Source: Myxococcales bacterium
GTDB lineage: Bacteria; Myxococcota_A; Polyangia; GCA-2747355
Direction of reading: 5' to 3'
DNA: 64,000 bases
Assembly (NCBI GenBank): GCA_020431405.1
Contig: JAGQIK010000559.1
Span: forward strand, 1-64,000
In this document: piece after piece, positions 9,096-32,510 of the stretch
Position numbering within the stretch: position 1 is the first letter of the stretch
Layout: each line of letters starts with the position of its first letter
Position numbers and translations under genes: made by a program
Notes under the pieces: generated by a model
The model's input: the letters and a program-made list of their open reading frames with translations, nothing else
Database searches by the model: none
Told to the model about the DNA's origin: nothing

Positions 9096-9097
9096 GA

Positions 9098-11836: not shown

Positions 11837-12180
11837 TTCCGCCTCTCCCTGTCTCCTACGACGATACCAGCGATCGTCGCACGGCGACTCCTCGTCGCAT
11901 GCGATGAGTGGCAACAGGCAGCAGGCCAGTCATCCGCATTCGCCGGTGATCGCAACTCGCCAGTTGATCTGCATCTACGCCACCTTAGACTGTACGCCTT
12001 GGAAATATCTTCCGTTTTTGAGACCCTCGATCGCATCGGCTCCTCGGCGGCACTGATAGGGCACGGTGGGGTGGGAGCCACCGCGCGGCCTTCCTGACTC
12101 CCTCAAGTCTCGTTCCGACCAATCGCTTTGGCGGGAATGGCCGCATTGGGACCGCTGGCATCAGCGCCAGGGAGGCTCAG
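11837..12180. promoter_or_regulatory. Divergent intergenic region, RADAR and helicase operons
   Basis: 344 bases between the rdrA start (minus) and the helicase start (plus); it should carry both promoters. The middle is less GC-rich (ttggaaatatcttccgttttt, about 11999-12020). An inverted repeat cggtgg/ccaccg occurs near 12063-12083. The right end carries GGGAGG six bases before the GTG at 12181. I cannot assign -10 or -35 boxes with confidence. Confidence 0.45.
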
Positions 12181-15100
12181 GTGGACGTCTTTGATCTGCG
12201 CAACCACGTAGTCCGCGACTACGCGGACTACGTCCGCAGTTTCCTCACGATCCGCGACCAGCGTATCGCGGAGCTCGTACAGCGCGAGATGCAGGACGGC
12301 TTCCTTTGGCCCGACCCCCTCGTCCAACTCAACCCCACATTTGAGCCCGGTCCCACGCTCGATGCGCTGATCGCTGACGGCGTGCTGCATCAGGAGTGCG
12401 CCCGGATCTTCTGCCGCAAACCGGCACGCGACACCAACGAGGGGCCTCTACGCTTTCACAAGCATCAGGTCGAAGGCATCGAGGCGGCCCGCAGGGGCAA
12501 GAACTACGTGCTCACGACCGGAACCGGGTCGGGCAAGAGCCTTTCGTACATCGTGCCGATCGTCGACCACGTACTGCGCCGTGGCACCGGGCGCGGTACG
12601 CAGGCGATCATCGTCTACCCGATGAACGCGTTGGCGAACAGCCAGCTCGGCGAGCTCCGCAAGTTCCTTCAGCACGGCTATCCTCAGGGGCGACCGCCCG
12701 TCACCTTCGAACGCTACACTGGTCAGGAGTCCAGCGATGAGCGGCAGCGGATCATCGCCAACCCGCCAGACATCATCCTGACCAACTACGTGATGCTTGA
12801 GCTGGTGCTGACACGGCACGGAAGCGGCGAGCAGAAGCTGGTTAGGGCCGCTGAGGGTCTGCGATTCCTCGTTCTGGACGAGCTGCACACCTATCGCGGT
12901 CGCCAAGGCGCTGACGTAGCAATGCTCTGCCGCCGCGTGCGCGAGGCGTGCAACGCCCACGACCTGCTGCACGTGGGCACGTCGGCAACGCTATCGAGCG
13001 GCGGCACTTGGCAGGAGCAGCAAGCGGAAGTCGCCGACGTTGCGTCGCGGCTGTTCGGTGCCACGGTCGAGCCCGACGCCGTGATCGGCGAGACTCTGCG
13101 CCGAGTGACCGAGCCTTCCAACGGTGGCGACGCTGCGTTCGTCGACAGCCTGAAGACTCGTATTGCCGACGACACTCCGCCTGCAACAGACACCGACGCC
13201 TTTCTGACGGACCCGCTCTCGCGTTGGATTGAAGGAACGCTGGGGCTGCAAGCCGAGCCAGAGTCCGGTCGCCTCACGCGCTGCCGCCCGCGGTCGCTCA
13301 CAGGAGAGGGTGGCGCCGGCGCCGAGCTCGCCAAGCTAACAGGCCTTAGCCCGGATCGATGCGAGCGCATCGTGCGCGAGGCACTGCTCGCTGGCTACCG
13401 CTGCAAGGATGCGCACGGCTGGCCGGTGTTCGCGTTCCGCCTCCACCAATTCGTGTCGAAGGGTGAGTCGGTTTATACGACGCTGGAAGATGAAGACGTC
13501 CGACATGTCACGCTGCAGGCGCAGCAGTACTCGCCGGGATCCGATCGGCAAAAGCTGCTACTGCCGGTGGCCTTCTGTCGCGAATGCGGCCAGGAGTACT
13601 ACCTCGTGCGGCGCGGGCAGGACTCGGAAGGGCGTTACCGTTATCTGCCGCGAGATCTGGGTGAACGTGTCGCCGATGACGACGGCGACCCCGGATTCCT
13701 CTACATCAACACGGCCGATCCCTGGCCGAAGGAGGCCGAGGATGTGATGCAGCGGCTGCCGGACGACTGGATCGAGGTCCGTAGTGGAGCCGAGCGCGTT
13801 AGGGACGCGCGACGCAAGCGACTCCCCCGCGAGGTCTTCGTCTCGCCCGACGGTATCGAGGGCGCTGGCACACTCCGAGCCCACTACATGAGGGCGCCCT
13901 TCATCTTCTGTCCGCATTGCCGCGTGGCATACAGCGCGCACCAGCGCTCAGACTTCGGCAAGCTGGCAACGCTGGGCTCAGAGGGACGAAGCACAGCAAC
14001 CACAATCCTCACCCTGTCGACGATCAGGGAGCTCCGCGGCAATCCTCACCTCGACCGAGAGGCGCAAAAGCTCCTCAGCTTCACCGATAACCGTCAGGAT
14101 GCCTCGCTGCAGGCTGGCCACTTCAACGACTTCGTGGAGATCGGGTTGCTTCGCTCCGCGCTCCACCGCGCCGTTGCGAATGCCGGCGATGAGGGCCTGC
14201 GACACGATACGCTGCCCTTGCGGGTCTTTGACGCGCTGGATCTGCCCCTTCGTCTCTACGCTGCTAATCCCGAGGTCGAATACCTTCAACTCGAGGAGAC
14301 GCAGCGCGCTCTTCGGCGTGTCATCTCATACTACCTTTATCGCGATCTGCAGCGCGGATGGCGAGTTACCCAGCCGAACCTCGAGCAATGCGGGCTGCTG
14401 AGGATCGACTACTTGTCGCTTGATGCCGTGTCCGACGACGACGGCAAGTGGTCCGAGTTTCACCCCGCGTTGGTCACCGCCTCGGCAGCCGATCGGCAGA
14501 AGGTCCTGCGCGTGATGCTCGACTTCATGCGCCGCGAGCTAGCGATCCGCGTCAGCTGCCTGCAGCACACCGAGCAGGAGGGCATCTTGCAGGCGTCAGC
14601 GCAGTATCTGATGCCGCCGTGGGCTCTCGACCCACAGGAGCAGATGGAGCGAGGGCGTCTCCTCTATCCGTGCTCGAGCGGTGCGATTCAAACTCGCGAG
14701 CAGGCCGTGTTCCTTTCGCCGCGAGGCGGCTTCGGCCTCTACCTCAAACGTCGCACCACGCTCCCAGACTACGGTGTTCAGCTCAAGACCGATGACATCG
14801 AGCAGATCATCAACCAGCTTCTAGATGTGCTGACGCTCGCCGGGATCACGCACCGCTTTGCACCGCGCAGAGATGAGAATGTCGCCGGCTACAAGCTGAA
14901 CGCATCGGCGATGGTCTGGAAGGTCGGCGACGGGCAGTCGGGCTTCCGCGATCCCATCCGCGTCCCCCATGCACCAGAGGAAGGCCATCGCGCCAATCCC
15001 TTCTTCGTCGGTTTCTACGGCGCTAGTGCGAGCGACCTCCAAGAGCTTCTCGCCCGCGAGCACACGGCCCAGGTTCTCGCCGAGACACGGCAAGAGCGAG

Positions 15101-17715: not shown

Positions 17716-17717
17716 AC

Positions 17718-19775
17718 ATGGGGCAACTGCTCGTCGCTGACACGTTCTTTCCATCCCTCAGCAAACTCGAGGCGAAGGAACAGGCTCGCGCCATCGATTT
17801 CGTTGCGCGATTCCAGCGTAACCCTGCTAATCCCGGCGTCAGTCTTGAACGGCTCACGGCTCGGTCGACGGACATCTGGAGCGGGCGCATCAGCCGAGAC
17901 CTGCGAGCCATCCTCTACAAGGACGGCGATTCGTGGGCGGTGCTTTACGCCGACCACCACGATCAGGCATATCGATGGGCCGAGCGCCGCGACATCGGGC
18001 GGCATCCGGTTACCGGATCGCTGCAGATCATCGAGACGGTGGAGACCATCCGCGAGGTCGCAAAGACGCTCGAGGCAGCGGTCCCAACCGGAGCACAGCC
18101 TGTATTCGCCGAACACGATAGCGACTACCTGCTAAGCCTCGGCGTGCCCGAGACCTGGCTCCCGGCCATTCGCAAGATTGTGAGCGACGAGCAGCTGTTC
18201 GAGGCCATCAGCCGCTTGCCCGAGGAGCTCGGCGAGCGTCTGCTTGACCTCGCCGCTGGCGAGTTCGTCACGCCGCCCGTACCAACGCCGCTGTCCGCAC
18301 CAGTCGCGGACAACGAAGACACGCGACGGCGTTTCTTCGTTGCAGACAACGAAGCGGAGCTCACCGCCGCCCTCGAAGCCCCTCTCGAGCGGTGGATCGC
18401 CTTTCTGCATCCGTCCCAGCGAACGCTCGTCGAGGCCTCCGTTAATGGCCCGGTGAAGGTGACGGGCTCTGCTGGCACCGGCAAGACTGTTGTGGCGATG
18501 CACCGCGCCCGCCATCTGGCTCGTCAGGGTAAGCGAGTTCTGCTGACGAGCTTCGTTACGACGCTCTGCAAGAATCTCGAGCGCAGTCTGGCGATGCTCT
18601 GCACCCCGGAGGAGCGCAAGCAGATAACTGTTTCCACGGTTCACAAGCAAGCGCTGGTGCTCGTCCACCAAGTCGAGCCACGCCTGCAGCCCGCGGCCGA
18701 GAAGGATGTTGACGGGCTGGTCGCCAGGATGGCGCTGAGCCACGCCTCATCCTTCAATGCCGACTTCGTGCAAGCGGAATGGAAGCACGTGATTCAGATG
18801 CAGGGGATCACGCGATGGTCCGAGTACCGATCAGCGAAGCGCACTGGACGCGGCCGCCCGCTCTCCGTCCGCGACCGCAAGACGTTGTGGACCGCCTTTG
18901 AGGCGGTGCAGACAGGTCTTGCCAGTCGAGGCCTTGTGGACTGGCCCGGCCTCTGTGTTCGTGCCGCCAACGCCCTGCAGGAGGGACGCGCCAGTTCGTC
19001 GTTCGATGCGGTTATCGTGGACGAGGTCCAAGATCCACGACCTCCAGCCCTACGGCTCGTGGCGGCGCTTGGAAACGAGCTGATGGTGGTGGGCGATGCG
19101 GGACAGCGCATCTATCCCGGCGGCTTCAGCCTCGCTGCGCTCGGCATCAACGTGCGCGGGCGCTCCCGCATCCTCCGCATCAACTATCGCACCACGGAGC
19201 AGATCCGCCGTAGCGCCGATCGGGTACTAGGAGATGCCGCGGACGACCTCGACGGCAGCAGCGAGCCACGCGCTGGAACAAAAAGCCTGCTCAGCGGACC
19301 TGCCCCGACGCTTTCCTCACACGCCACACGGGAAGCCGAGCTCGCGGCTGCAGTGGAGCAGATCAAGTCGTTGCTGGTCGATGGCGTGGCATTGGGCGAC
19401 GTCGCAGTCTTCGCGCGATCGGGATCCCGCGCGACGGCAGCCGTCAAGGCTCTCGAGCTGGCCGGGCTGACGAGTCGACGTCTGGCAGACGACGACGCAC
19501 CCCACGGCGGAGCCGTATCGGTCGGCACGATGCACCGCGCCAAAGGCCTGGAGTTCAAGGTTGTGCTGGTACTCGACTGCGGCGCGTCCGTGATGCCCAG
19601 TCCACACGTCCTACGACAGCTCGACGACCCGCAGGACTGCGAGGACGCAGAAGCGAGGGAGCGACGCTTGTTGTATGTGGCGATGACCCGCGCTCGAGAT
19701 CAGCTCTACCTGAGCTGGTCAGGCAAGCCCAGTCCATTCATCGAGCCGCTGCTAAATCGGGAGAACGCCGGATGA
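17718..19775 (+). CDS. RelE-like domain fused to UvrD/Rep superfamily I helicase
   Basis: 685 residues, ATG two bases after the previous stop. Residues 1-95 resemble the RelE/ParE toxin fold (FQRNPANPGVSLERL, DIWSGRISRDLRAILYKDG, AVLYADHHDQAYRWAERR). The UvrD-type helicase starts near 235: Walker A GSAGTGKT (about 250), Walker B AVIVDEVQDPR, VGDAGQRIYPGG, RILRINYRTTEQIR, VGTMHRAKGLEFKVV and motif VI LLYVAMTRARDQLYL. All helicase motifs appear intact. RelE-UvrD fusions are recurrent in defence neighbourhoods. The stop overlaps the next ATG (ATGA), so expression is coupled. The RelE part may act on RNA or serve only as a binding module; this cannot be told from sequence. Confidence 0.88.
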   Translation: MGQLLVADTFFPSLSKLEAKEQARAIDFVARFQRNPANPGVSLERLTARSTDIWSGRISRDLRAILYKDGDSWAVLYADHHDQAYRWAERRDIGRHPVTGSLQIIETVETIREVAKTLEAAVPTGAQPVFAEHDSDYLLSLGVPETWLPAIRKIVSDEQLFEAISRLPEELGERLLDLAAGEFVTPPVPTPLSAPVADNEDTRRRFFVADNEAELTAALEAPLERWIAFLHPSQRTLVEASVNGPVKVTGSAGTGKTVVAMHRARHLARQGKRVLLTSFVTTLCKNLERSLAMLCTPEERKQITVSTVHKQALVLVHQVEPRLQPAAEKDVDGLVARMALSHASSFNADFVQAEWKHVIQMQGITRWSEYRSAKRTGRGRPLSVRDRKTLWTAFEAVQTGLASRGLVDWPGLCVRAANALQEGRASSSFDAVIVDEVQDPRPPALRLVAALGNELMVVGDAGQRIYPGGFSLAALGINVRGRSRILRINYRTTEQIRRSADRVLGDAADDLDGSSEPRAGTKSLLSGPAPTLSSHATREAELAAAVEQIKSLLVDGVALGDVAVFARSGSRATAAVKALELAGLTSRRLADDDAPHGGAVSVGTMHRAKGLEFKVVLVLDCGASVMPSPHVLRQLDDPQDCEDAEARERRLLYVAMTRARDQLYLSWSGKPSPFIEPLLNRENAG

Positions 19776-22597
19776 ACTTCGAGGTGGGCTCGCTCGTGCG
19801 AGCGCGTGGTCGTGAATGGGTCGTGCTGCCCGAGTCCAGGGCCGACGAAGACATGTTGGTCCTCCGCCCTCTCGGCGGCACGGACGATGAGGTCACCGGC
19901 GTGTACCTTCCGCTCGAGCCGGTCGAGCCGGCCACCTTCCCGCTGCCCGATCCCGCGCATCTCGGCAACCACCTGTCGTGCAGCCTGCTGCGCGACGCCG
20001 TCCGCCTCGGATTCCGCTCGGGCGCCGGCCCGTTCCGGTCCCTGTCTCGGATCCGCGTCGAGCCTCGCCCCTACCAGCTCGTCCCCTTGCTCATGGCGCT
20101 TCGTCTGGACCCCGTGCGTCTACTGGTAGCCGACGATGTCGGCGTCGGCAAAACGATCGAGGCCTGTCTGATCGCCCGCGAGCTGCTAGACCGAGCTGAG
20201 ATACGCCGCGTCGCAGTTCTCTGTCCCCCGCACCTTGCTGAGCAGTGGCAGCGCAATCTTCTTCAGCAGTTCCATATCGACGCCGCGCTGGTCCTCGCCG
20301 GTACGGCTGCACGCCTCGAGCGCGAGTGTGGATTGGGAGAGTCACTGTTCGATCGCCACCCGCACGCTGTCGTGTCGACGGACTACATCAAGTCCGATCG
20401 CCGGCGTGATGAGTTCCTCCGCGCCTGTCCCGAGTTGGTGATCGTCGACGAGGCGCACACCTGCGCGACGGCTGAAGGACGTCGCTCGGGACGCCAGCAG
20501 CGCCACGAGCTGCTCAAAGGGCTCACCAAACGCGAGGACCGACATCTAGTTCTCGTGACCGCCACACCCCACAGCGGCAACGAAGAAACGTTTCGATCGC
20601 TTCTGACGCTGCTCGACCCTCAGTTTCGAGACCTTCCGCAGGACCTGAGCGGCGAGCACAACCGCAAGCATCGGTCTCGGCTGGCTCAGCACTTCGTCCA
20701 ACGTCGTCGCGCCGACCTCGAAGCCTACCTCGACATCGAAACGCCATTTCCCAGGCGAGAGATCGCCGAGGAGCACTACAACCTCACGCGGGAGTATCGC
20801 GCGTTCTTTGACCGCGTCCTGGCCTACTGCCGTGAGCGCGTCACCGAGTCTGATCTTGGACAGCATCACCAGCGGGTTCGCTGGTGGTCGGCGCTAGCGC
20901 TCCTCCGAGCGCTCGCTTCCAGTCCCCGAGCGGCTGCTGAGACGCTGCGCAACCGCGCGGCCAGCGCCGCGACGGAGACCGTTGCAGAAGCCGACGACGT
21001 GGGGCGTCGAACGGTGCTTGACCTCGAGGAAGAAAGCATCGAAGGCGTCGACGTCATCCCAGGCAGCCAAACCGAGTCCGATGATGACGAGAAGTCGCCC
21101 GAGCGGAGGCGCCTGCTCAAGCTCGCTCGCGAAGTGGAAAAACTGGCCGGCAAGTCGGATGCGAAGCTCCAGCGGGCTTGCGAGCTGGTTGAGCAGCTCT
21201 TGAAGGATGGCCACGCGCCGATCCTCTTTTGCCGCTTCATTCCAACCGTCGACTATGTCGCGGAGGCACTGCGAAAGCGGCTGAAGAAGAAGGTTACCGT
21301 CGAGGCGATCACGGGGACGCTCCCGCCCGAGGAGCGCGAACAGCGCGTAGAAGCGCTTGGAGCGCACGACAAGCGAGTGCTCGTCTGCACCGACTGTCTC
21401 AGTGAAGGCATCAACCTCCAACAGCACTTCGATGCTGTCGTCCACTACGATCTGAGCTGGAACCCCACGCGGCACGAGCAACGCGAAGGCCGAGTTGACC
21501 GCTACGGCCAGGCGAGGCCGAGTGTGCGGACCTTGACCTACTACGGCGCGGACAACCCCGTTGACGGGTTTGTCCTCGAGGTACTGCTCCGCAAGCACAA
21601 GTCAATCCACAAGCAGCTCGGGATCATCGTGCCCGTGCCCCTAGATACCAACGTCATCATCGAGGCGATCTTCGAGGGCCTGCTGTTGAAGAAGCAGGGC
21701 GGCACCGGCCAGATGGTGCTGCCCGGAACCCTCGAGCCAACCAAGAAAGAGCTCGACGTGCAGTGGGATGCAGCCGTAGACCGCGAGCGTCGTAGCCGCA
21801 CGATCTTCGCTCAGCGCACTATCAAGGTCGAGGACGTTTCGCAGGAGCTCGCGGCCACACGCCACGCCCTGGGTGACGACCGCATCGTCGAGGAGTTCAC
21901 CCGCCACGGGCTTCGAGCCGTCGGAGCGACGCTGTCGAAGAAAGACCCTCTTCGCGTAGACCTTGCAGGCACGAATGCGGCCGTGCGCGACGCGCTGGGA
22001 GAAGACGCTGAGTTCACAGTATCGTTCCGGCCCCCCGAGGCAAGGAACGCGCTGCTGCTCACGCGCACGCACCCCGTCGTCGAGGGCCTTGCCACCCACG
22101 TCCTGGAAACAGCCCTCGACGCACTCGCAGACGGCGTCGGAAGGCGGTGTGGTGTGGTCCGTACTGCCTCTGTCGGCAAGCGCACCACGCTGCTCCTGCT
22201 GCGCATGCGCTATCACATCGTTACCCGCGGCCGCGACGGTGTGGAGCGACCGCTGCTTGCCGAAGATCACGCCCTCGTAGGCTTTCGAGGCGCACCGGCC
22301 AAGGCGCGTTGGCTGGCGGAGGACGAGCTGCTGCCGCTGCTCGAAGCAACGCCATCAGCCAACACGCCGGCCGAGATTGCACGGCAACAGGTGCAGAGCG
22401 TGATCGATGGCTACCCTGACCTGCGCAGGCACCTCGACGATACGGTCAAGCGGCGCGGAGACGCGCTGCTAGAGGCTCATCGTCGGGTACGCAAGGCTGC
22501 CCGCCTGGCGGTTCGATCGACGCGAGTGCAGCCGCATTTTCCGGCCGACGTGCTGGGGATATTCGTCTATCTGCCAGTGGCGGGCGGTGCTGCATGA
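19772..22597 (+). CDS. SNF2-family helicase, DrmD/HmaA-like
   Basis: 941 residues, ATG overlapping the previous stop. SNF2/HepA-type core: Walker A LLVADDVGVGKTIEA (about 115-129), Walker B LVIVDEAHTC (about 221-230), VLVTATPHSG, and second RecA lobe with HEQREGRVDRYGQ (about 568-580). The N-terminal 90 residues (FEVGSLVRARGREWVVLP) form a small beta-rich domain as in DISARM DrmD. The following methylase and SMC-like ATPase match the order known for DISARM class 1 (drmD-drmMI) and for helicase-methylase-ATPase (Hma) loci; the ATPase favours Hma. It likely translocates along duplex DNA. ATGA overlap with the methylase gene indicates coupled translation. Confidence 0.87.
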   Translation: MNFEVGSLVRARGREWVVLPESRADEDMLVLRPLGGTDDEVTGVYLPLEPVEPATFPLPDPAHLGNHLSCSLLRDAVRLGFRSGAGPFRSLSRIRVEPRPYQLVPLLMALRLDPVRLLVADDVGVGKTIEACLIARELLDRAEIRRVAVLCPPHLAEQWQRNLLQQFHIDAALVLAGTAARLERECGLGESLFDRHPHAVVSTDYIKSDRRRDEFLRACPELVIVDEAHTCATAEGRRSGRQQRHELLKGLTKREDRHLVLVTATPHSGNEETFRSLLTLLDPQFRDLPQDLSGEHNRKHRSRLAQHFVQRRRADLEAYLDIETPFPRREIAEEHYNLTREYRAFFDRVLAYCRERVTESDLGQHHQRVRWWSALALLRALASSPRAAAETLRNRAASAATETVAEADDVGRRTVLDLEEESIEGVDVIPGSQTESDDDEKSPERRRLLKLAREVEKLAGKSDAKLQRACELVEQLLKDGHAPILFCRFIPTVDYVAEALRKRLKKKVTVEAITGTLPPEEREQRVEALGAHDKRVLVCTDCLSEGINLQQHFDAVVHYDLSWNPTRHEQREGRVDRYGQARPSVRTLTYYGADNPVDGFVLEVLLRKHKSIHKQLGIIVPVPLDTNVIIEAIFEGLLLKKQGGTGQMVLPGTLEPTKKELDVQWDAAVDRERRSRTIFAQRTIKVEDVSQELAATRHALGDDRIVEEFTRHGLRAVGATLSKKDPLRVDLAGTNAAVRDALGEDAEFTVSFRPPEARNALLLTRTHPVVEGLATHVLETALDALADGVGRRCGVVRTASVGKRTTLLLLRMRYHIVTRGRDGVERPLLAEDHALVGFRGAPAKARWLAEDELLPLLEATPSANTPAEIARQQVQSVIDGYPDLRRHLDDTVKRRGDALLEAHRRVRKAARLAVRSTRVQPHFPADVLGIFVYLPVAGGAA

Positions 22598-25500
22598 AGC
22601 GCCGCGCAAGCCAATCTCCCTTCACCTCCGTGAAATCCGAGGGAGGCATTCTCCCGATCGATCTACTCGAGCTCGTCGCAGCGCGTGACGATCGCGTGCC
22701 TGGCCTTGCCAACGCCGCGTACCACCTCGGCAAGCACGAACGCATCGGCGAAGCCATCAACCGATCATGGAGCCGCCTTCTCGGGTGCTGGACCAGCTTC
22801 TCGGACGCACGCGCGAAGCTGACCGAGGGAGATCGCGGCACGACGATTACACGCGAACGCTGGCTCTTGCCTCTCTTTCAGGAACTCGACTACGGCCGGC
22901 TCACCGCCGCCAAGACCTTCGAGATCGACGAGCGCAGCTTCACCATCTCACACGCATGGCAGAGCTCGCCGATCCACCTTCTGGGCTGCAAGGTCTCGCT
23001 CGACCGCAGGATGAAGGGCGTCGCAGGCGCAGCGAGCGCATCACCGCACAGCTTGGTCCAGGGCTTTCTCAACAAGTCCGACGATCATCTCTGGGGCTTC
23101 CTCTCCAACGGCCTTGCGCTGCGCATCTTGCGCGACAACTACAGCTTCACCCGCCAGGCCTACGTCGAGTTCGACCTCGAGGCGATCATGGACGGCGAGC
23201 AGTACGCCGAGTTCGCCCTGCTGTGGCTCTGCTGTCATCAGAGCCGCGTCGAGCACGAGGTTCCCGAGCAGTGCTGGCTCGAGAAATGGTTCGAGTTCTC
23301 GCGCGAGGAAGGCGTCCGCGCTCTCGACGGGCTCCGCAACGGTGTGGAAGAGGCCATTGCCACGCTGGGCGCCGGCTTTCTGCGCTATCGAGGTAACGAG
23401 GCTCTACACAGGGCTTTGCAGGCTGGCGAGCTCGACACCCAGGACTACTACCGACAGCTCCTTCGGCTCGCCTACCGTCTGATCTTCCTCTTTGTCGCCG
23501 AAGATCGACAGGCCCTGCTCGATCCCGCCGCCTCAGACGCCGCCAAGCGTCGCTACACCAACTACTACGCCACCACGCACCTGCGCCACCTGGCAGGGCG
23601 TCGGCGCGGCGGCCCGCACGTGGACCTGTGGCGCAAACTCCGGCTCGTGATGAGCAAGCTCTACGACGGCTGCTCCGAGCTCGCCCTCCCCGCGCTCGGG
23701 AGCCAGCTCTGGGACGATCGCACCGTTTCCTGGCTTGTCGGCAGCGACATCACCAACCAGGACCTGCTACGCGCCATCGCCGTGCTGTCCACGATCATTG
23801 AGGGCGGCGTCCGTCGCCCGGTGAACTGGCGCAACATCGGCGCCGACGAGCTCGGCAGCGTGTACGAGTCACTGCTCGAGCTGCATCCCAACCTCAGCCG
23901 AGACGCCGGGACCTTCGAGCTCAAGTCGGCCGCGGGCCACGAGCGCAAGACGACCGGGTCCTACTACACGCCGGCATCGCTGGTAAGCTGCCTGCTCGAT
24001 ACCGCGCTCGATCCTGTGATGGACGAGGCGGTGAGCAAGCCGAACTCCGAGCGGGCGCTCCTCGAGCTGAAGATCTGTGACCCGGCCTGCGGGTCGGGGC
24101 ATTTCCTGGTGGCCGCGGCGCACCGGCTGGCCAAGCGTCTAGCAGCCGTTCGCTCCGACGACGACGAGCCCAGTCCCGAGGCGCTGCGAAGGGCGCTCCG
24201 TGACGTGGTCGGGCGCTGCTTGTTCGGAGTCGACGTCAATCCCATGGCGATCGAGCTGTGCAAGTTCAGCCTTTGGCTGGAGGCGATCGAACCGGGCAAG
24301 CCGCTGAGCTTTCTCGATGCACACCTCCAGTGTGGCAACTCCTTGCTCGGAGCCGCGCCCGCGCTGATGTCCGATGGCATTCCAGACGATGCTTTCAAAC
24401 CAATCGAAGGCGACGAGAAGAAGGTCGCCGCTCGGCTGAAGAAGCGCAACAAAGCGGAGCGAAGGGGGCAGACCACGCTCTTCGCATCTTTTGCTTCTGA
24501 GGCAAGAGTGGAATACCACGTGCTCGCCAATCAGGCGAAGCACGTAGAAGAGTCGCCTGACGACGACATCAGTGCGGTGCGTGAGAAGGAGCTGTCGTGG
24601 CGTCGGCTGCAGCAGTCAGCGAAGTTCAACGACAAGGTGTTTGCAGCGGACGCATGGTGCGCGGCATTCGTCTGGCCCCTGACTGACGAGTCGGAGGCCT
24701 TCGCTGTCACGCACGATGTCTGGCTTCAGCTCCAGAGAGATGTGACGCGCGTGCCCCAGCAGACCCGCTCTGAAGTGCGGCGGTTAGCAAGGCAGTTCGG
24801 ATTCTTCCACTGGCATCTCGCGTTTCCCCACGTCTTCTCGGAGGTCGAGGCCGAGCGTCGTGATTCTGGGATGGGCTGGTCCGGGGGGTTCGACGTTGTG
24901 TTGGGGAACCCTCCGTGGGAGCGCATTAAGCTGCAAGAGAAGGAGTTCTTCGCCACGCGAAACGAGGGGATTGCCAGCGCCAAGAACGCGGCCGCGCGAA
25001 GAAAGCTGATCGCCAAGCTACCCAGCGAAGACCCTACCCTATGGACCGCGTGGTGCGATGCTCGCCGTATCGCCGAGGGCGCGAGCCACCTGGTCCGCAA
25101 CACCGGGCGCTACCCACTCTGCGGCCGCGGAGATGTGAACACCTACTCGATCTTCGCGGAGCTCAACCGTGGTCTCATGTCGTCACGGGGGCGCGTCGGC
25201 TGCATCGTGCCCACCGGCATCGCCACAGACGATACAACTAAGGCATTCTTTGCGGATCTCATGGGTCGTCGACAGCTTGCGGCGTTCTTCGGCTTCGAAA
25301 ACGAGGCGAAGCTGTTTGCCGGCATCGATCATCGCGTCAATTTCTGCCTCCTCGTCCTATCGGCAGCGCCAAGCTCGGCAGCGAAGTTCTCCGCCTTTGT
25401 CCGCGATCCCTCGCTTCTGCGCGGTGGGGACCGCGTTTACGAGCTTTCGGCTAGCGACATCGCTCGCCTCAATCCGAACACGCGCACATGCCCCGTCTTT

Positions 25501-27042
25501 CGCACGCGACGTGACGCAGATCTGACCCTCTCGCTGTACGACAGGGCTGGCATCCTCTGGACCGAGGCGAGCAATGAAGCCGGCAACCCCTGGGGCATGC
25601 GCTTCGGATCCATGTTTCACATGGCGAACGACTCTGGTTTGTTCCGAAATGCGAGCGCGGTAGCGGCTGGCTCATCTCGCGAGGGGCCTCACCTTCGGCT
25701 CTTTGAGTCGAAGATGATATACCACTTCAATCACCGATTCGGGGACTTTGCCCTCGTAGAGCCCGGACAACGAGCGCACATTCTGCCCGACGTGCTAGAC
25801 GAGCATTGTGCTCAAGCTCGGTATCAAACCACTCCACGATACTGGGTCGCCGAAACGGCAGTTGTGGAACGCATGGCTTCCGTTTGGAGGCATCGCTGGT
25901 TTCTCGCCTGGCGTCGAGTCACTGACTCGCGCTCGAGCGTCAGGACGTTCATTGCCACGGTCCTTCCTTGGTCCGCCGTCGGTGATTCCCTGTTCCTCGC
26001 TATGCCTTCGACGAAACCAGTGAAGACTGCGGCGTTGCTAGCGAACTTCTGTAGCTTCATCTTCGACTACGCTTGCCGGCAAAAGCTGAGCGGAGTGAAC
26101 CTCAACTACTACGTAGTCCGTCAGCTTCCAGCTTTGATGCCCTCGAGCTATGACGGTCCTGCACCTTGGTGTTCCCACTCCCGGCTACAAGACTGGATAC
26201 TTTCCAGAGTCCTTGAGCTGACCTATACCGCCTGGGACTTGGGGTCATTCGCTCATGACGTTGGGTACCGAGGGCCTCCCTTTCGTTGGGATCCGCAGCG
26301 TCGCGCAGTGCTACGCGCCGAGCTTGATGCAGCGTTCTTTCACCTCTATGGCATCGCCGCCGCCGACGTCGACTACATCATGGACACCTTTCCCATTGTT
26401 CGTCGGAGGGAAGAGAAGCACCTTGGGGAGTACCGCACCAAGCGCCAGATCCTCGAGGTATACGACCTGATGGTGCGAGCCATCGAGACGGGCGAGCCGT
26501 TTCGCACCCTTCTTGATCCTCCGCCAGCCGACCCGAGCGTGGCACATCCCGCCGTCCATCCCCTTTCGCTACCCGCCATGCCGGCGACGACCCCCGCGCT
26601 CGGCGTGCAAGACGATTTCGCGGTCCTGATCTGGGCGCTGCTGCGAGCACGAAGCGGACGCATTGATCGCATCCAGCTCGCTCGCGCTTTCGCTCTGCGG
26701 AGCCAGCCAGCAACGCTGGCAAGGTTGGCACCCGCAGCGCTACAGGAGCAGGCAAACGCCTGGCGTGACCGCGTCGCGTCGCGAGAGGTGGCGAACGGCG
26801 CCCTCGCCCAAGCTCTGAACGAGCTTGCTGACCGGGAGGGCGTAAGCCTGACGTCGGCGGGAGGAAGGGCTTTGGTGGAGGCGACCGCTCACACGCCGCC
26901 GGAAGAGAAGATCGACCCCTGGTACCGCTTCGAAGCTCGGCTTGCCCTGGCGGTCCTCGACGAATTGCCATCCGCTGAGGTCTCACAGATCGACCGCGAG
27001 ATTCCGGCAGAGGACCACGGGAGGGCGGAGGCACAAGGGTGA
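22594..27042 (+). CDS. Very large N6-adenine DNA methylase (Eco57I/DrmMI/HmaB-like)
   Basis: 1482 residues, ATG overlapping the previous stop. The methyltransferase core has the SAM-binding motif CDPACGSGHFLVAA (about 494-507), DVNPMAIELCKFSLWLEAIEP, and the catalytic GNPPWERIKL (about 771-780), diagnostic for N6-adenine methylation. An N-terminal region of about 450 residues and a C-terminal region of about 500 residues (probable target recognition) flank it, as in single-chain Eco57I-like enzymes. I do not see a convincing PD-(D/E)XK site in the N-terminus, so cleavage by this protein is not claimed. In DISARM and Hma loci such methylases mark host DNA and are paired with helicases. Coupled to the next gene by a GTGA overlap. 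Confidence 0.88.
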   Translation: MKRRASQSPFTSVKSEGGILPIDLLELVAARDDRVPGLANAAYHLGKHERIGEAINRSWSRLLGCWTSFSDARAKLTEGDRGTTITRERWLLPLFQELDYGRLTAAKTFEIDERSFTISHAWQSSPIHLLGCKVSLDRRMKGVAGAASASPHSLVQGFLNKSDDHLWGFLSNGLALRILRDNYSFTRQAYVEFDLEAIMDGEQYAEFALLWLCCHQSRVEHEVPEQCWLEKWFEFSREEGVRALDGLRNGVEEAIATLGAGFLRYRGNEALHRALQAGELDTQDYYRQLLRLAYRLIFLFVAEDRQALLDPAASDAAKRRYTNYYATTHLRHLAGRRRGGPHVDLWRKLRLVMSKLYDGCSELALPALGSQLWDDRTVSWLVGSDITNQDLLRAIAVLSTIIEGGVRRPVNWRNIGADELGSVYESLLELHPNLSRDAGTFELKSAAGHERKTTGSYYTPASLVSCLLDTALDPVMDEAVSKPNSERALLELKICDPACGSGHFLVAAAHRLAKRLAAVRSDDDEPSPEALRRALRDVVGRCLFGVDVNPMAIELCKFSLWLEAIEPGKPLSFLDAHLQCGNSLLGAAPALMSDGIPDDAFKPIEGDEKKVAARLKKRNKAERRGQTTLFASFASEARVEYHVLANQAKHVEESPDDDISAVREKELSWRRLQQSAKFNDKVFAADAWCAAFVWPLTDESEAFAVTHDVWLQLQRDVTRVPQQTRSEVRRLARQFGFFHWHLAFPHVFSEVEAERRDSGMGWSGGFDVVLGNPPWERIKLQEKEFFATRNEGIASAKNAAARRKLIAKLPSEDPTLWTAWCDARRIAEGASHLVRNTGRYPLCGRGDVNTYSIFAELNRGLMSSRGRVGCIVPTGIATDDTTKAFFADLMGRRQLAAFFGFENEAKLFAGIDHRVNFCLLVLSAAPSSAAKFSAFVRDPSLLRGGDRVYELSASDIARLNPNTRTCPVFRTRRDADLTLSLYDRAGILWTEASNEAGNPWGMRFGSMFHMANDSGLFRNASAVAAGSSREGPHLRLFESKMIYHFNHRFGDFALVEPGQRAHILPDVLDEHCAQARYQTTPRYWVAETAVVERMASVWRHRWFLAWRRVTDSRSSVRTFIATVLPWSAVGDSLFLAMPSTKPVKTAALLANFCSFIFDYACRQKLSGVNLNYYVVRQLPALMPSSYDGPAPWCSHSRLQDWILSRVLELTYTAWDLGSFAHDVGYRGPPFRWDPQRRAVLRAELDAAFFHLYGIAAADVDYIMDTFPIVRRREEKHLGEYRTKRQILEVYDLMVRAIETGEPFRTLLDPPPADPSVAHPAVHPLSLPAMPATTPALGVQDDFAVLIWALLRARSGRIDRIQLARAFALRSQPATLARLAPAALQEQANAWRDRVASREVANGALAQALNELADREGVSLTSAGGRALVEATAHTPPEEKIDPWYRFEARLALAVLDELPSAEVSQIDREIPAEDHGRAEAQG

Positions 27043-29048
27043 GCCGGCAGCTGCGCATCTCCGGGATCGATCCGCGGCGGGAGCTCAAGCCGGATCGCGC
27101 TCGACAAACCCCCGTTGTCTGGATCAGCCGACTGCAGATCCGACGATCGCTCGCCGCGGGTGACGAGCACGTCATCCGCGACATTGAACTCCGGCGGGGG
27201 CTGAACATCATCTGGGCGCCGCCAGCCGACAGCGAAGAGGAGAACGCTCTCTTCCGCAGTGGCGTCGGTGGCCATACGGCTGGCAAGACCACGCTCTGCC
27301 GCTTCATCCGCTTCGCGCTGGGCGAGGGGAGCTTCGCCACCGAGAGTACCCGCCAGCGCATCCGGCTCAAGATCCATGGCGGATGGATTGCCGCGGAGGC
27401 GCAGGTCGGCGGACGCCTCTGGGCCATCGCCCGACCATTCGCGGTCGGGCCGCACCCCCGGTGCGTGGAGGACGGCTCGATCGACGACATGCTCGCTGAC
27501 GGCGCGGACGACCGGCGCGACTACCAGGCGTTCCTCGACGCGGTGCGGAAGGCAACGACATCCACGCTGCCCGCCCGCAACTTCCCTGCGCGTGGTGAGG
27601 CCGTTCAATGGGAACACATCCTGCCGTGGCTGTCCCGCGACCAGGAGTGCCGCTTCTCCGACTTCCTCGACTGGCGTCATGCTTCCACACACTCGGACGC
27701 ACCCGGCCTTCACACCGACGAGCGGCAATTCGTTGTTCGCTCAGTCCTCGGCCTGATCACTGACAGGGAGCGGGCGGAGCAGAAACGAAATGCCGAGCTG
27801 CTGGCCAAGAAAAAGCAGGCGGAGCGTCTAGCCCCGCTGCTCGCTCACCAGGCGACTGTAGATCACCAACGAGTGCAGGAGGCGCTCGACCAGAAGCTTC
27901 CGCCACCGTCCTCCGATCTCTTCGGCGAGCAAAGCGGCAAGGAGGTCCAAAGGCATGTGGCGGAGCTAAAAGAGAAGATGCGAGCGCTCGAAGAAGCTGA
28001 CCGTCGTGCCGAGTTCCGGCAGGTTCTCGAAGAGCGCGTGGCGGCTGAAGCGAACGCGCGGCGCGATGTCGAGGAAGCCGCTACGCGACTTGGTGCTGAG
28101 CAGCTTGCTGTCCAACAGCTGGCTCCTCGAGCTGCGGGCGAGGGTCAGGCCGCGCTACTTGCCAGCCTTCCGCCGGCCCGCGACTACTGCAATGTCCCTA
28201 TGGCCCTCGCCCGCGAGCAAGGCTGCCCGATCGCCGCCGGCCGCCCGCTGTCGCTCGAGCGGAAGAGAAGCGAGCGAACAGCCGCCGAGGCCCTCGAAGC
28301 GCAGCAACAGATCGTCCAGGCGCTGGAGGCCCAGGCGCGGTCACGGCAAGCGGCGCTGAAGACTGCCCAGCAGGCGACGCGAAAGGCCCGTAAGGCCTAC
28401 ACCAAAGCGGCGACGGCCTACGTGGAGAAACGCGAACGCCTGCTAAAGGACCAGTCGCGCCTCGACCACATCTCGCGCCTAGTCGATAACGCCGCCAAGG
28501 CCTGGAAGCAGTCGGAGAAGAAGACGGCGACGATCGACAAGCTCGCCAAGGACATCGACGCCTCCTACAAACAGCAGGTGCAGCTGCGCCAGGAAGCCAA
28601 TGAAGCGCTCGGGAGATTCTCGTCGACCTTCGAACACGTCGTGCGTGCCCTGCTCGGCGACCAAGTCACCGCGCGGGTGGAAGCAGCCGGACGCGGACTG
28701 TCTTTGAGCATCGATGACAACGGCGAGCGCGACAGCGCCGCCCTCGAAACGCTCAAACTCTGGGCTTTCGATCTCGCCGCGCTAACGGACAGCATCGAAG
28801 GGCACGGCCACTTCCCACGCTTTCTGCTACACGACGGCCCTCGAGAGGGAGACATCGCAGCCGACCTCTACGAGCGGCTCTTCCTCTACGCACGCCAACT
28901 CGAGTCTTGCTTCGACGGTGAGCCGAACTTCCAGTACATCGTCACCACGACGACGCCTGCTCCGGTCTCGCTAGCCAAAGAGCCGTGGCTTCGCCTCCAG
29001 ATCTCAGGCGCTCCGGCGGAGCAGCGCCTGCTGACGATGAACCTATGA
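27039..29048 (+). CDS. SMC/RecN-like coiled-coil ATPase (HmaC-like)
   Basis: 669 residues, GTG start overlapping the methylase stop. N-terminal ATPase half with Walker A GGHTAGKTTLCRF (about 76-88), preceded by LRRGLNIIWAPP. Two long coiled-coil arms (about 245-360 and 400-520) flank a central segment with two cysteines (DYCNVPMALAREQGCP, about 384-399) where a Rad50-type hook would lie; the spacing is not a CxxC hook. The C-terminal lobe has FLLHDGPREGD, a Walker-B-like D-x-x-E segment. This is the expected third gene of helicase-methylase-ATPase loci and resembles DUF2326-type ATPases. A 73-base gap to the next gene makes it the last strictly overlapped member of the operon. Confidence 0.82.
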   Translation: MSRQLRISGIDPRRELKPDRARQTPVVWISRLQIRRSLAAGDEHVIRDIELRRGLNIIWAPPADSEEENALFRSGVGGHTAGKTTLCRFIRFALGEGSFATESTRQRIRLKIHGGWIAAEAQVGGRLWAIARPFAVGPHPRCVEDGSIDDMLADGADDRRDYQAFLDAVRKATTSTLPARNFPARGEAVQWEHILPWLSRDQECRFSDFLDWRHASTHSDAPGLHTDERQFVVRSVLGLITDRERAEQKRNAELLAKKKQAERLAPLLAHQATVDHQRVQEALDQKLPPPSSDLFGEQSGKEVQRHVAELKEKMRALEEADRRAEFRQVLEERVAAEANARRDVEEAATRLGAEQLAVQQLAPRAAGEGQAALLASLPPARDYCNVPMALAREQGCPIAAGRPLSLERKRSERTAAEALEAQQQIVQALEAQARSRQAALKTAQQATRKARKAYTKAATAYVEKRERLLKDQSRLDHISRLVDNAAKAWKQSEKKTATIDKLAKDIDASYKQQVQLRQEANEALGRFSSTFEHVVRALLGDQVTARVEAAGRGLSLSIDDNGERDSAALETLKLWAFDLAALTDSIEGHGHFPRFLLHDGPREGDIAADLYERLFLYARQLESCFDGEPNFQYIVTTTTPAPVSLAKEPWLRLQISGAPAEQRLLTMNL

Positions 29049-29121: not shown

Positions 29122-29976
29122 ATGAGCTCGAGCGTTCACTTGCTCGGTATCGACGAGAAGCTGACGGAGACCGAGCGGCTCTCTGCCTTCTTCCACATGG
29201 TTAACCGGCTCTTGCCCCCAGATCAGGTGGTGCTGGCGATTCCCCCCGAGATGCCTGCCGGGGAGGCGCTCTCGCTAATGCGAGCAAACGGATACTCTCA
29301 GCTGCCCGTCAAGCAGGGAGAATCGGTGCTCGGTCTCTTCACGTATCGCGCCTTCGCGCTTGAAGTGGCCAAAATGAAAAAGCCCGCGGTTGACCCATCG
29401 ACTCTCGCCGTCGAGGAGTTCCTCGAGCACGAAAAGCCGGCCTACGCCCGTCTGAGCGACGAGTTCAGGGGGCTCGTCGACGTACTCGACGAACGGGACT
29501 CCGTCGTGGTTAGCGGGCCAGACGACCTCATTGCGATTCTGACGCCCATGGACGTGCTTCGGTACCTCTATTCCGTAGCCAACGCCTTCGTCCTGATCGA
29601 GGAAATCGAACTGGCGTTGAGGGCGCTAATTCGTGCAAGCACGCCAGACCACGAGTTGTTTCTGACTTGCATCCGTAACGCTCTCTCGAAGAAGTACAAG
29701 GACAAAGAACTGCCGCAGCGACTCGAAGACATGACTTTCGACGAGTACGTCGCTCTGCTACGGGACGGTCGCAACTGGCCTCATTTCGAGAGCAACTTCG
29801 GTGGCACTAGAGAAAGAACCCGCGGGAAGCTGGAGCCGATCCGTGACCTCCGCAACGATGTGTTTCACTTTCGTCGCGAGCTATCGATTGGGGACCACAA
29901 AGCGCTGACAACCTGCCGAGACTGGCTTCTGCGATGCGTGCGCAAAGTGCACGCAAGAGAAGGGGGTCGGCAATGA
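29122..29976 (+). CDS. CBS-domain protein with C-terminal HEPN (Swt1-like) domain
   Basis: 284 residues from ATG 29122, chosen for the purine-rich ggcggagggg upstream. Residues about 35-155 contain two CBS-type repeats (GEALSLMRANGYSQLPVKQG with VLGLFTYRAFA; later DLIAILTPMDVLRYL). Residues about 165-275 are helical and include LRNDVFHFRRE, where RNDVFH fits the R-x4-H signature of HEPN ribonucleases and Swt1-type HEPN domains. CBS pairs usually bind adenine nucleotides, so the layout is sensor plus RNase. Its stop overlaps the start of the following helicase-like gene (ATGA). With RADAR next door making unusual nucleotides, a nucleotide-sensing RNase is a suggestive but unproven link. Confidence 0.75.
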   Translation: MSSSVHLLGIDEKLTETERLSAFFHMVNRLLPPDQVVLAIPPEMPAGEALSLMRANGYSQLPVKQGESVLGLFTYRAFALEVAKMKKPAVDPSTLAVEEFLEHEKPAYARLSDEFRGLVDVLDERDSVVVSGPDDLIAILTPMDVLRYLYSVANAFVLIEEIELALRALIRASTPDHELFLTCIRNALSKKYKDKELPQRLEDMTFDEYVALLRDGRNWPHFESNFGGTRERTRGKLEPIRDLRNDVFHFRRELSIGDHKALTTCRDWLLRCVRKVHAREGGRQ

Positions 29977-31337
29977 CCATCGACCAGGGCGAGGTGCGAG
30001 CCGACCCACGCTACACCTCATACCAACGAGAGTTCTTCGAGCGCTTCGTTTCGAAGGTAGACCGCGGAAGCATTCACTTGCTCTTGGCGCCAATTGGCAC
30101 CGGCAAGTCGTTTGTCACGGCAGGGAGCATCGCTGAGCTCTTAAGGATTGGTCGCCTACGACGTGTTCTGATCATGTCTCCTGCAGCGCTCGCGTCGCAA
30201 TGGGCCTACATGCTTGGGGACATCGGCTGCGATACTGCCGTTGTCGATGGGCGGGCTCTGCGGCTTCTGCTCGAACAAGTGGGGTCCAGCTTCAATGATT
30301 GGCCCATTGGCTCTTTCTCAATGAGTATCGATCTCGGAAAGCGCCCACCTGTTCACGATGCCATTGTTCGCGTGCCGTGGGACCTGGTCGTCGTCGACAA
30401 CGCACACGCCCTTGGTGGCCAGCGCCTTCAGCTCATTGAGGACTTTGCCGCAAGGGAGAACGCGCCAGCTCTCTTACTACTAGCTGCCAACAATCTCAGC
30501 AGAGGCACGGCAGCCTTCGTCGACCAAGCCATCGTTGTCGACTGGACTGCAGCGATCAACGAGATACGCGGCCCCGTGGAGGAGCGGCTGCACCGAGTCA
30601 CATGTCGCTACAGCTTGGCGAATGACGAGTTGACGGTCATGCGCGGTGTCTGCGAGTGCGCACTCAAGCTAGAACCGTTCCGCGGACTCCTACTACTTCA
30701 TCGAGCTGCCTCAAGCGTCAGCACGTTGGAGGAGACCTTGCTACGCTGGCTTGCTGATTGTGCCGACTCATCCGATTCGACACTGGCAGATGCCTTTGGA
30801 GACCTGCTCGACGACGTGGAACAACTACGCGTCGATTCGAAGCTAGATTGTTTCCAAGCGCTCATTCAAGAGCTCATCGGTGATCAGACTCGACACGTCG
30901 TAGCGTTTTGCGAGTACCGCGCAACGCTTGAGTACCTAGCAGCAGCCGTGGAGCGCCTCGAGTTTCCCGATTATCGGCTCCACGGAGGGTTGTCGGCGGG
31001 CCAACGTGCAGACGTTCTAGACCGTTTCGAACGCGATGGCGGACTACTGGTCACAACGGGAGCGTCTGAGACCGTATCACTTGGCTACGTCGATGCAGCG
31101 ATTCACTATGATCTTCCTCTATCGGCGGCCGCCTTCGCTCAGCGCGAGGGGCGCTACGACCGGTTCGGTCGCCGAGGCCGCTGTAGCGTCTTCTTCTTCG
31201 AAGACGAGGCGCAAGCGAACCCACTCGATGGGCTGCTACTCAAGCTGGTCGCCAATAGCGGCCTTGTGACAGTCGACCAACGTATTGAGCCGTTCGACGT
31301 CTTTGGCACGGACCACGCGGCGACTTTTAGCGGGTAG
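29973..31337 (+). CDS. Short SNF2-like helicase with degenerate Walker B (DNAH)
   Basis: 454 residues, ATG overlapping the CBS-HEPN stop. Superfamily 2 landmarks: Walker A APIGTGKSF (about 38-46), VLIMSPAALASQW, then DLVVVDNAHALGG at about 137-149, where the catalytic glutamate of DEAH is replaced by Asn. The second lobe has HVVAFCEYRATLEYL, YRLHGGLSAGQRADVL and motif VI FAQREGRYDRFGRRG (about 388-402). It resembles the DrmD-like helicase upstream (HEQREGRVDRYGQ) but is half the size, so it may be a shortened paralogue. The motif II change predicts impaired ATP hydrolysis, suggesting a binding or sensing role with the HEPN partner. Residue identity is seen; the consequence is inferred. Confidence 0.75.
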   Translation: MTIDQGEVRADPRYTSYQREFFERFVSKVDRGSIHLLLAPIGTGKSFVTAGSIAELLRIGRLRRVLIMSPAALASQWAYMLGDIGCDTAVVDGRALRLLLEQVGSSFNDWPIGSFSMSIDLGKRPPVHDAIVRVPWDLVVVDNAHALGGQRLQLIEDFAARENAPALLLLAANNLSRGTAAFVDQAIVVDWTAAINEIRGPVEERLHRVTCRYSLANDELTVMRGVCECALKLEPFRGLLLLHRAASSVSTLEETLLRWLADCADSSDSTLADAFGDLLDDVEQLRVDSKLDCFQALIQELIGDQTRHVVAFCEYRATLEYLAAAVERLEFPDYRLHGGLSAGQRADVLDRFERDGGLLVTTGASETVSLGYVDAAIHYDLPLSAAAFAQREGRYDRFGRRGRCSVFFFEDEAQANPLDGLLLKLVANSGLVTVDQRIEPFDVFGTDHAATFSG

Positions 31338-31422
31338 TTTGTGAGCCATGCCGACGCCTCGTGAATGCCAGCCAGGGAACACGTGTGTGGGGTGGATGAG
31401 CCTGCCGTCGGAGGACACTCAT

Positions 31423-31612
31423 ATGGGCGACCGAGCAGAATTCTCAGCGACAACGAGAGCAGCGCTCGCAGAGCGAGCCGGGTTTAGGTGCTCATTTCCG
31501 AGTTGCCGACGCATTACGATTGGTCCAAGTGCTCGAACAAGACCGGCATGGCGTGCCATATCGCGGCGGCGGGCGGCCGGCGGCGAGCTGCGCGGATAAC
31601 TCCCCGACGGCA
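31423..31612 (+). pseudogene. HNH endonuclease gene, frameshifted and cut off by an IS insertion
   Basis: ATG 31423 with cggagg upstream opens MGDRAEFSATTRAALAERAG followed by FRCSFPSCRR and GPSA, the start of a common HNH endonuclease family (consensus RAxxxCSNPxCRxxTxGPS). After about 31538 the continuation (KTGMACHIAAAGGRRR) is found one frame over, so there is a frameshift. At 31613 the sequence enters an IS256-family left end. The rest of the gene is missing. Confidence 0.7.
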
Positions 31613-32510
31613 GGGACTGTCAGAAATTCTGTGTACAGGGATCGGCGCACCCGTTAAGGAGTGAGCCATGTCCTTGAAGAATGACCATGAAGAAGGCGGC
31701 AAGCGCGAGCGTGCGGTGCTTGCCGACGGCAGCGCGATCCCGGCAGAGCTGGTCGATCAGCTTCTGAAGGGCTATCGGCGCCCTGAGGATCTGACGGGCC
31801 CCAATGGGCTGTTGAAGCAGCTGACAGCGGCGCTGGTCAACCGTGCGATTGAGGCCGAGCTGAGCCACCACCCCGGCTACAACTCGGGCCAGCGGGCGCC
31901 TGAGGGGCAAAGTAACCGGCGCAATGGCAAGGGGCGCAAGCGGCTGCGCACCGACAATGGCGAAGTCGAAGTCAGCGTTCCGCGCGACCGCGAAGGCAGC
32001 TTCGAGCCCCAGCTTGTGGCCAAGCATCAGCGCCACTTCAACGGCTTCGATGACAAGATCCTCGCGATGTATGCACGCGGCATGAGTGTGCGCGATATCC
32101 GCGCTCACCTCGAGGAGATCTACGGCGTCGACGTCAGCCCCGACCTGATCTCGAAGGTCACCGACAGCATCGTCGACGAGCTACGGGCCTGGCAGCAGCG
32201 GCCGCTGGAAGCCGTCTACCTCGATGCGATCGTCGTCAAGATCCGCGACAAAGCGGGCGTGCGCAACAAGAGCATCTACGTGGCGGTCGGTCTTTTGGCC
32301 GATGGACCAAGGATGTGCTCGGCCTGTGGGTGCAGGACAGCGAGGGCGCGACGTTCTGGTACGCGATCCTCGAGCAGCTGCGCAAGCGAGGTGTGCGCGA
32401 CATCTTCGTGCTGTGCACCGATGGTCTCGCCGGGATCGGTGAGGCCATCGAGGCCATCTTCTCGCGCTCGATCTCCCAGACGTGCATCGTGCACGTGATC
32501 CGCTCTTTAG
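31613..32510 (+). mobile_element. Remnant of an IS256-family insertion sequence
   Basis: Left end at about 31613 begins gggactgtcagaaattctgt, typical of IS256-group terminal inverted repeats, and is followed 30 bases on by the transposase gene. The right end is missing: similarity stops at about 32510 inside the transposase, so no right terminal repeat or target duplication can be shown. The element disrupted the HNH gene and was later truncated itself. Confidence 0.75.
31668..32508 (+). pseudogene. IS256-family (mutator-type) transposase, frameshifted and truncated
   Basis: ATG 31668. Frame 1 encodes a normal N-terminal half (LTAALVNRAIEAELSHHPGY, RKRLRTDNGEVEVSVPRDR, MYARGMSVRDIRAHLEEIYG) with the first catalytic Asp in AVYLDAIVVKI. 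At about 32306 one base is missing (gatggaccaagg where gatggaaccaagg is expected), and the sequence continues in another frame as KDVLGLWVQDSEG with the second catalytic Asp in FVLCTDGLAGI. It ends abruptly after CIVHVIRS, before the catalytic Glu. The gene cannot make an active transposase. Confidence 0.85.

Follow-up and report, generated by a model that had tools for sequence, protein, structure and literature searches.

The closest described relative of the locus studied here is DS-11, a one-protein CBS-HEPN system that protects E. coli against phage and whose defence requires both the HEPN residues and a CBS residue predicted to contact adenine (PMC13092281). CBS-HEPN fusions are also noted in passages of the survey by Anantharaman et al. 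2013 (PMC3710099). Two further precedents bear on the locus: inactive, fast-evolving Swi2/Snf2 domains in PglZ and DndH have been proposed as sensors, and HEPN domains have been described as back-up effectors of BREX-type loci (both PMC12839542).

Here we describe a CBS-HEPN gene coupled to a gene for an SNF2-like protein in a Myxococcales bacterium. While defence by CBS-HEPN proteins is already known, their pairing with what appears to be an SNF2 pseudo-helicase is the new part: we found no description of such a pair in open-access full texts, and no entry describing it in PADLOC, Pfam or NCBIfam. We give roughly an even chance to the reading that the pair is an undescribed two-protein immune system, present in at least five phyla, in which an SNF2 motor has become a non-hydrolysing sensor or brake of a nucleotide-gated HEPN RNase, its motifs having been lost repeatedly and separately. 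CBS-HEPN proteins have only recently been validated as phage defence, through DS-11, and the partner clade, as a candidate sensor or brake, may offer a handle on their activation switch. The clade also illustrates clearly how a helicase can become a pseudo-enzyme, probably in an immune context, and offers nine natural variants of that loss.

Organization of the locus

The window, that is, the whole stretch of 64,000 nucleotides that was analysed (contig JAGQIK010000559.1 of assembly GCA_020431405.1), carries both genes on the same strand (Table 1). The CBS-HEPN gene starts with ATG at 29122 and stops at 29974-29976, and the partner begins at 29973 with an ATG that runs into this stop codon (ATGA); the genes are thus coupled, as the original prediction had proposed.

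Table 1 Positions of the pair, its motifs and neighbouring genes in the window.
Feature	Position	Strand	Basis or remark
CHAT-domain gene	2537..4099		5.7e-19
RdrB-like gene	6405..9110	-	PADLOC 2e-35
Divergent RADAR-like pair (RdrB-like gene and coupled 937-aa gene)	6405..11914	-	RdrA similarity trace (0.001) in the 937-aa gene
ARMADA-like operon, directly upstream of the pair (context only)	12181..27042	+	profile matches; naming after PMC12458937
LmuB-like SMC ATPase, between methylase and pair	27039..29048	+	PADLOC LmuB 2.3e-13
CBS-HEPN protein, 284 aa	29122..29976	+	two CBS motifs, then HEPN RNase domain
CBS2 nucleotide-contact signature T141-P-M-D144	29542..29553	+	alignments
HEPN catalytic motif R244-N-D-V-F-H249 (R-x4-H)	29851..29868	+	sequence
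Putative SNF2/RapA-type pseudo-helicase partner, 454 aa, two-lobe	29973..31337	+	ATGA-coupled to CBS-HEPN gene
Partner Walker A (motif I) APIGTGKS	30087..30110	+	intact in window copy
Partner motif II D-N-A-H	30396..30407	+	sequence; catalytic Glu replaced
Partner motif III site	30477..30494	+	LLAANN instead of LTATPH/SAT
Partner motif VI QREGRYDR	31140..31163	+	both arginine-finger positions kept in window copy
HNH-type gene start and transposase	31348..32498		HNH start by eye
Avs3-like protein, 2056 aa	32692..39508		Avs3a 1.9e-84

The CBS-HEPN protein

A CBS sensor joined to a HEPN domain had been predicted, and both are present: residues 37-78 match Pfam CBS (4.2e-8), and after the CBS pair a helical domain carries R244-NDVF-H249, which fits the R-x4-H signature typical of HEPN RNases, enzymes that act as dimers. 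The AF2 model (pLDDT 87.2) has PDB matches to the CBS fold; since the best 50 PDB fold matches all lie on the CBS half, support for the HEPN fold comes from the motif, the helical prediction and the homology to DS-11. Against NCBIfam NF053863 (DS11_antiphage) the window protein aligns over residues 15-266 of 284 (1.3e-26) with 93.5 bits, the Kitasatospora and Oscillochloris proteins scoring 99.3 and 84.5 under a cut-off of 260; by this measure it is a distant DS-11 homologue and not an equivalog. The same homology makes the predicted nucleotide-sensing RNase plausible, with the RNase activity itself presumed.

Orthologues are 31-56% identical to the window protein. The R, N and H of the catalytic motif are invariant in 11-12 aligned homologues, R-N-x-x-F-H-F is invariant across the CBS-HEPN proteins of the pair clade, and the HEPN active site is intact in all nine pair loci. 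T-x-x-D is the ribose-contact signature of CBS domains; in CBS2, D144 is invariant in the pair clade and T141 is replaced in one member. With its active site kept, the RNase of the pair shows no decay.

Recurrence, fusion and co-inheritance

The pair recurs in eight further loci (seven with adjacent genes, one fusion) and overall in at least five phyla, bearing out the prediction of a recurring coupled unit; the recurrence exceeds chance. Among 379 genomes of the window's phylum, four clear CBS-HEPN orthologues (48-56% identity) were found, each immediately preceding a gene that encodes a short SNF2-like protein; the near-identical short contigs of G111 and G243 were counted once. A scan of GTDB representatives found pairs in a Cyanobacteriota MAG (L035), Kitasatospora phosalacinea (L037), an Ignavibacteriaceae MAG (L038) and Oscillochloris (L039), and a search of the phylum of L035 found G1123, in which both parts lie in one 782-aa frame. 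Of the nine loci, four (counting the window) belong to the window's phylum and two come from the Cyanobacteriota search set; Actinomycetota, Ignavibacteriota and Chloroflexota contribute one apiece. The pair is rare, occurring in no more than about 1% of genomes in any sampled phylum, and near-identical 3-kb contigs carrying it in two draft genomes (L032, which also has a Rad52-like gene, and L034) may reflect either a mobile element or shared contamination.

The SNF2 partner is adjacent or fused in 9/9 loci. Overlaps of 4 bp join the genes in six of the eight two-gene loci (window, G356, G100, G111, L035, L037); in L038 the genes overlap by 1 bp, and in L039 they are 7 bp apart. At the G1123 junction, GGCCCTGATGCCC, CBS-HEPN and partner run in one frame; a natural fusion is the simple reading of this sequence, and a one-base assembly error near the junction is the alternative.

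Both proteins have also been inherited together. Pairwise identity averages 35.5% among the CBS-HEPN proteins and 21.1% among the partners, and the two sets of distances are congruent (r=0.69, Mantel p=0.009, n=8). The window, G356, G100, G111 and G1123 group together in both trees (support 100/99 for CBS-HEPN, 86/86 for the partner), and both trees make G356 and G1123 sisters, the CBS-HEPN tree weakly so. A single origin of the partners is compatible with the data (p-AU 0.097), within the limit that long branches set on the helicase tree.

Distant CBS-HEPN proteins (haloarchaea, Chloroflexota, Planctomycetota and others) stand without the partner, often with other extensions. The Chloroflexota proteins closest to the pair clade (L036, 9926-13433, and L033) carry additional C-terminal sequence where the partner would be, and in L036 the CBS-HEPN gene is followed by a helicase gene whose motif II looks normal. 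Two scans of IMG/VR returned no relative, and carriage by viruses was rejected; plasmids yielded distant, partner-less haloarchaeal CBS-HEPN proteins and one HEPN-only match in Anabaena, and nothing else.

Loss of motor motifs in the partner

The partner matches Helicase_C (1.7e-12), plus weak ResIII/DEAD matches; by profile its best solved relative is RapA, and the AF2 model, built with nine sequences, has a two-lobe SNF2 fold (pLDDT 83.4). It was predicted to be a half-size helicase with DNAH in place of DEAH and otherwise intact motifs I and VI. Each of these features is found in the window copy, which has 135 residues between motifs III and IV and is without C-terminal domains, and motif III is additionally lost (LLAANN vs LTATPH in full-length relatives). 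A sequencing error behind DNAH was rejected: the Asn codon is AAC, GAA and GAG are two base changes away, and one error is insufficient.

The predicted catalytic alteration holds for the whole partner family. In an alignment of the nine partners with 15 complete full-length relatives (a non-random sample, found with the partner profile or drawn from the same operons, after removal of duplicates and of incomplete frames), motif III is kept in 0/9 partners vs 15/15 relatives (Fisher p=8e-7) and the motif II Glu in 2/9 vs 15/15 (p=1e-4). Motif VI is broken in most partners, Q390 being kept in 3/9 vs 15/15 (p=6e-4) and R394 in 4/9 vs 15/15 (p=0.003). One relative with odd motifs and a doubtful frame (L056) was left out; if it is included, the relatives keep motifs II and III in 15/16. 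Two partners have lost the Walker-A lysine and two the motif II Asp. The stretch separating motifs III and IV measures 126-176 residues in the partners, vs 188-303 in 13/15 relatives, and open frames span 410-490 aa in all nine loci. The intact motifs I, II, III and VI that would mark a working motor of the RapA/BrxHII/DrmD class are not present together.

Lesions differ from copy to copy. Motif II reads DDCG in G356, DDIT in the Ignavibacteriaceae partner and DGST in G100, where motif VI is absent; Oscillochloris has GKG and DDFD, and Kitasatospora has ED-A (DAAH if slid by one) with an incomplete motif VI. L035 has GLGIH at Walker A and no motif II Asp. The one partner of nine that keeps DEAH, in G111, has GSGVS at Walker A, without the lysine, and no motif VI. 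The original prediction was to fall if helicases beside CBS-HEPN genes retained DEAH or if the pair did not recur; with the pair recurring and the single DEAH copy disabled at other sites, it was not refuted on these grounds. The fused G1123 copy has DEAS, and what it lacks is chiefly motif III; Walker A, the D-E of motif II, all else in motifs I and II and the two motif VI arginines are present, so some ATP turnover may persist in this member.

Over the nine partners the residue at the motif II Glu position is N, D, G, E, D, D, D, D and E, so the suggestion that Asn might be conserved in the partner family failed, and Asn as a conserved specialised residue was rejected. Residues invariant in eight aligned partners (M1, G44, R97, E219, L256, D288) include no catalytic residue, and identity to the window copy is 19-33%. 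On this comparison the partners are a pseudo-helicase family in which loss of the motor is conserved and Asn itself is not. Motor chemistry lost differently in different bacteria suggests that the former motor may now serve as a sensor or brake for the RNase. The partner cores are net negative (-5 to -17), which would not favour plain nucleic-acid binding; as a test of such binding, charge was rejected as uninformative.

Genomic surroundings

Directly upstream of the pair, the window carries in order a YprA-type helicase, a UvrD helicase with a weak RelE/YoeB-like N-terminus, a BrxHII/DrmD-type SNF2 helicase and a PglX-type methylase. The features expected of ARMADA are present, with a YprA-like helicase that has a Zn domain (DEAD, MZB, DUF559) and matches to the DpdE/DrmD and DrmMI/PglX models; the DUF559 match points to a putative Vsr-type nuclease at the C-terminus of the helicase. 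A helicase-first order has been described for Type I ARMADA and a RelE-UvrD gene for Type II, and the window operon combines the two. An LmuB-like SMC gene is coupled to the methylase, with no recognised LmuA partner; as a third component of the pair it was rejected, having no match in the other pair loci examined.

The original prediction also placed the pair near RADAR, whose action changes adenine nucleotides of the kind bound by CBS domains. The RdrB-like gene lies 20 kb from the pair on the opposite strand with the ARMADA operon between, and other pair loci contain no match to RdrB or RdrA-like genes; without recurrence, RADAR as a nucleotide source for the CBS domain was rejected. The window's RdrB-like gene encodes an adenosine deaminase and, with its coupled 937-aa neighbour, resembles a divergent RADAR pair; a CHAT-domain gene lies at the edge of the defence island. 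Just after the pair, a seemingly truncated HNH-type gene start is cut off before a Mutator-family (IS256-like) transposase with a broken frame, beyond which come the Avs3-like gene and a 247-aa gene weakly like Avs3b.

Elsewhere the neighbours vary. In G356, homologues of ArmC, ArmA and ArmB (39, 44 and 50% identity) directly adjoin the pair upstream, the methylase stop overlaps the CBS-HEPN start (GTGA) and an OLD/GajA-like ATPase follows downstream. In L035 the pair is followed by BrxA, BrxB, BrxC and PglX. The L039 pair sits between methylase and HsdR-like genes and the G100 pair near a LeoA-like dynamin, while beside the pairs of L037 and L038 no defence gene was recognised. The fused gene G1123 (L081, 9554-11902) is divergent from a type III-B CRISPR locus, its neighbours including a Cmr1-like RAMP gene, Cmr2, Cmr3, Cas6 and a Csm6-type HEPN protein, which raises the question of whether its CBS domain reads cyclic oligoadenylate. 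Since the neighbours range from ARMADA, BREX, type III CRISPR and restriction-modification genes to none, the pair moves between defence loci without being tied to any of them; ARMADA adjoins it in 2/9 loci only (window, G356), and a fixed place in ARMADA was rejected.

Proposed function and alternatives

DS-11 homology and the Swi2/Snf2 sensor precedent lead us to infer a nucleotide-gated RNase held and triggered by a non-hydrolysing SNF2 scaffold. The CBS-HEPN protein would be the effector, its HEPN RNase gated by an adenine-type nucleotide on the CBS domain, as proposed for DS-11. The partner would be an SNF2 protein of the RapA/BrxHII class, retained as a two-lobe scaffold after abandoning ATP-driven translocation; most likely it binds CBS-HEPN and acts as sensor and brake, keeping the RNase inactive. 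An encounter with nucleic acid from an invader or with a phage protein would make it release or activate the RNase, which would cut RNA and stop the phage or the cell. Read from sequence, the two genes are paired, coupled and inherited jointly, with one case of fusion, and the RNase site has stayed intact while the motor decayed repeatedly; all of this argues for such a two-gene, DS-11-like immune unit, as does the opposite constraint on the two proteins (R-x4-H invariant, catalytic residues of the partner variable). We consider this reading, with an ATPase-dead scaffold that senses invaders or restrains the RNase, about evenly poised between right and wrong. Counting against it are the net negative charge of the partner cores, the two pairs (Kitasatospora, Ignavibacteriaceae) beside which no defence gene was recognised, the motifs kept in G1123 and the partner-free action of DS-11. 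The distinct immune unit of the original prediction has stood as a recurring coupled pair with defence neighbours and a putative role in defence.

A partner that is still a motor, a weak or slow ATPase or translocase with unusual working motifs that feeds or activates the RNase, would account for the Walker A, motif II Asp and both motif VI arginines retained in the window copy, and for the motif II Glu additionally retained in G1123. We think it distinctly unlikely: motif III is gone in all nine partners, five have lost R394 besides the losses of the Walker-A lysine and motif II Asp, no catalytic residue is invariant, and the deep losses in L035, Kitasatospora, G100 and G111 fit poorly. At the other extreme, the helicase might be a functionless, decaying passenger behind the CBS-HEPN gene. 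Its fast divergence and scattered motif losses would be expected of one, but over such distances so would a deletion or frameshift, whereas the frames are open in 9/9 loci, coupling is kept, distances match, one copy is fused and the modelled two-lobe fold is confident; this already disfavoured explanation has only the slightest chance of being right.

The surroundings bear on two other accounts. The pair might be an accessory effector of ARMADA or BREX, larger systems that target DNA, and serve as a reserve suicide arm triggered by their failure, given that it lies downstream of ARMADA in two loci (in G356 with the GTGA overlap), that BREX genes begin about 0.7 kb downstream in L035 and that HEPN domains have been described in that role (PMC12839542). 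Six of the nine loci, however, lack both ARMADA and BREX within the DNA examined, two of them lying among ordinary genes, and we regard this account as fairly unlikely. A stress module resembling a toxin-antitoxin system, in which CBS reads the energy state of the cell and the partner neutralises the RNase, would suit a toxin-like RNase coupled to a divergent partner and the non-defence surroundings of the Ignavibacteriaceae and Kitasatospora copies. Yet its homologue DS-11 protects against phage (PMC13092281), several loci adjoin defence systems and an antitoxin with a 450-aa helicase fold would be unusual, which makes such a module very unlikely. A HEPN-MNT toxin-antitoxin was rejected, the partner having an SF2 fold and not that of a nucleotidyltransferase antitoxin.

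Comparison with known systems

Like DS-11, the protein of our pair has CBS then HEPN in one chain, near full-length homology and an intact RNase motif. DS-11 is a single protein, whereas here a helicase-derived partner accompanies or is fused to it in every locus; since DS-11 works without one, the helicase is presumably dispensable for the basic function. The fusions noted by Anantharaman et al. 2013 (PMC3710099) combine the same domains and come with the same proposal of an RNase controlled by a CBS ligand, and the passages of that survey on CBS fusions make no mention of a helicase partner. Csm6/Csx1-type CARF-HEPN proteins likewise place a nucleotide-sensor domain ahead of a HEPN RNase, though CBS replaces CARF here and the pair has no polymerase partner.

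On the helicase side, RapA, BrxHII, DrmD, DpdE and ArmA have the same fold, and the partner profile best matches RapA and the DrmD/BrxHI models, with scores below the equivalog cut-offs (80 of 610 bits for DrmD, 46.6 of 500 bits for DpdE). Unlike them, the partner is about half the length, with a shortened inter-lobe region and no C-terminal domains, and its motif III is gone and motif II mostly gone. The Swi2/Snf2 domains of PglZ and DndH are, like the partner, inactivated and fast-evolving SNF2 P-loop domains retained in a defence setting, but in those cases one inactive lobe is fused to another kind of effector, whereas ours is a two-lobe protein paired with a HEPN RNase.
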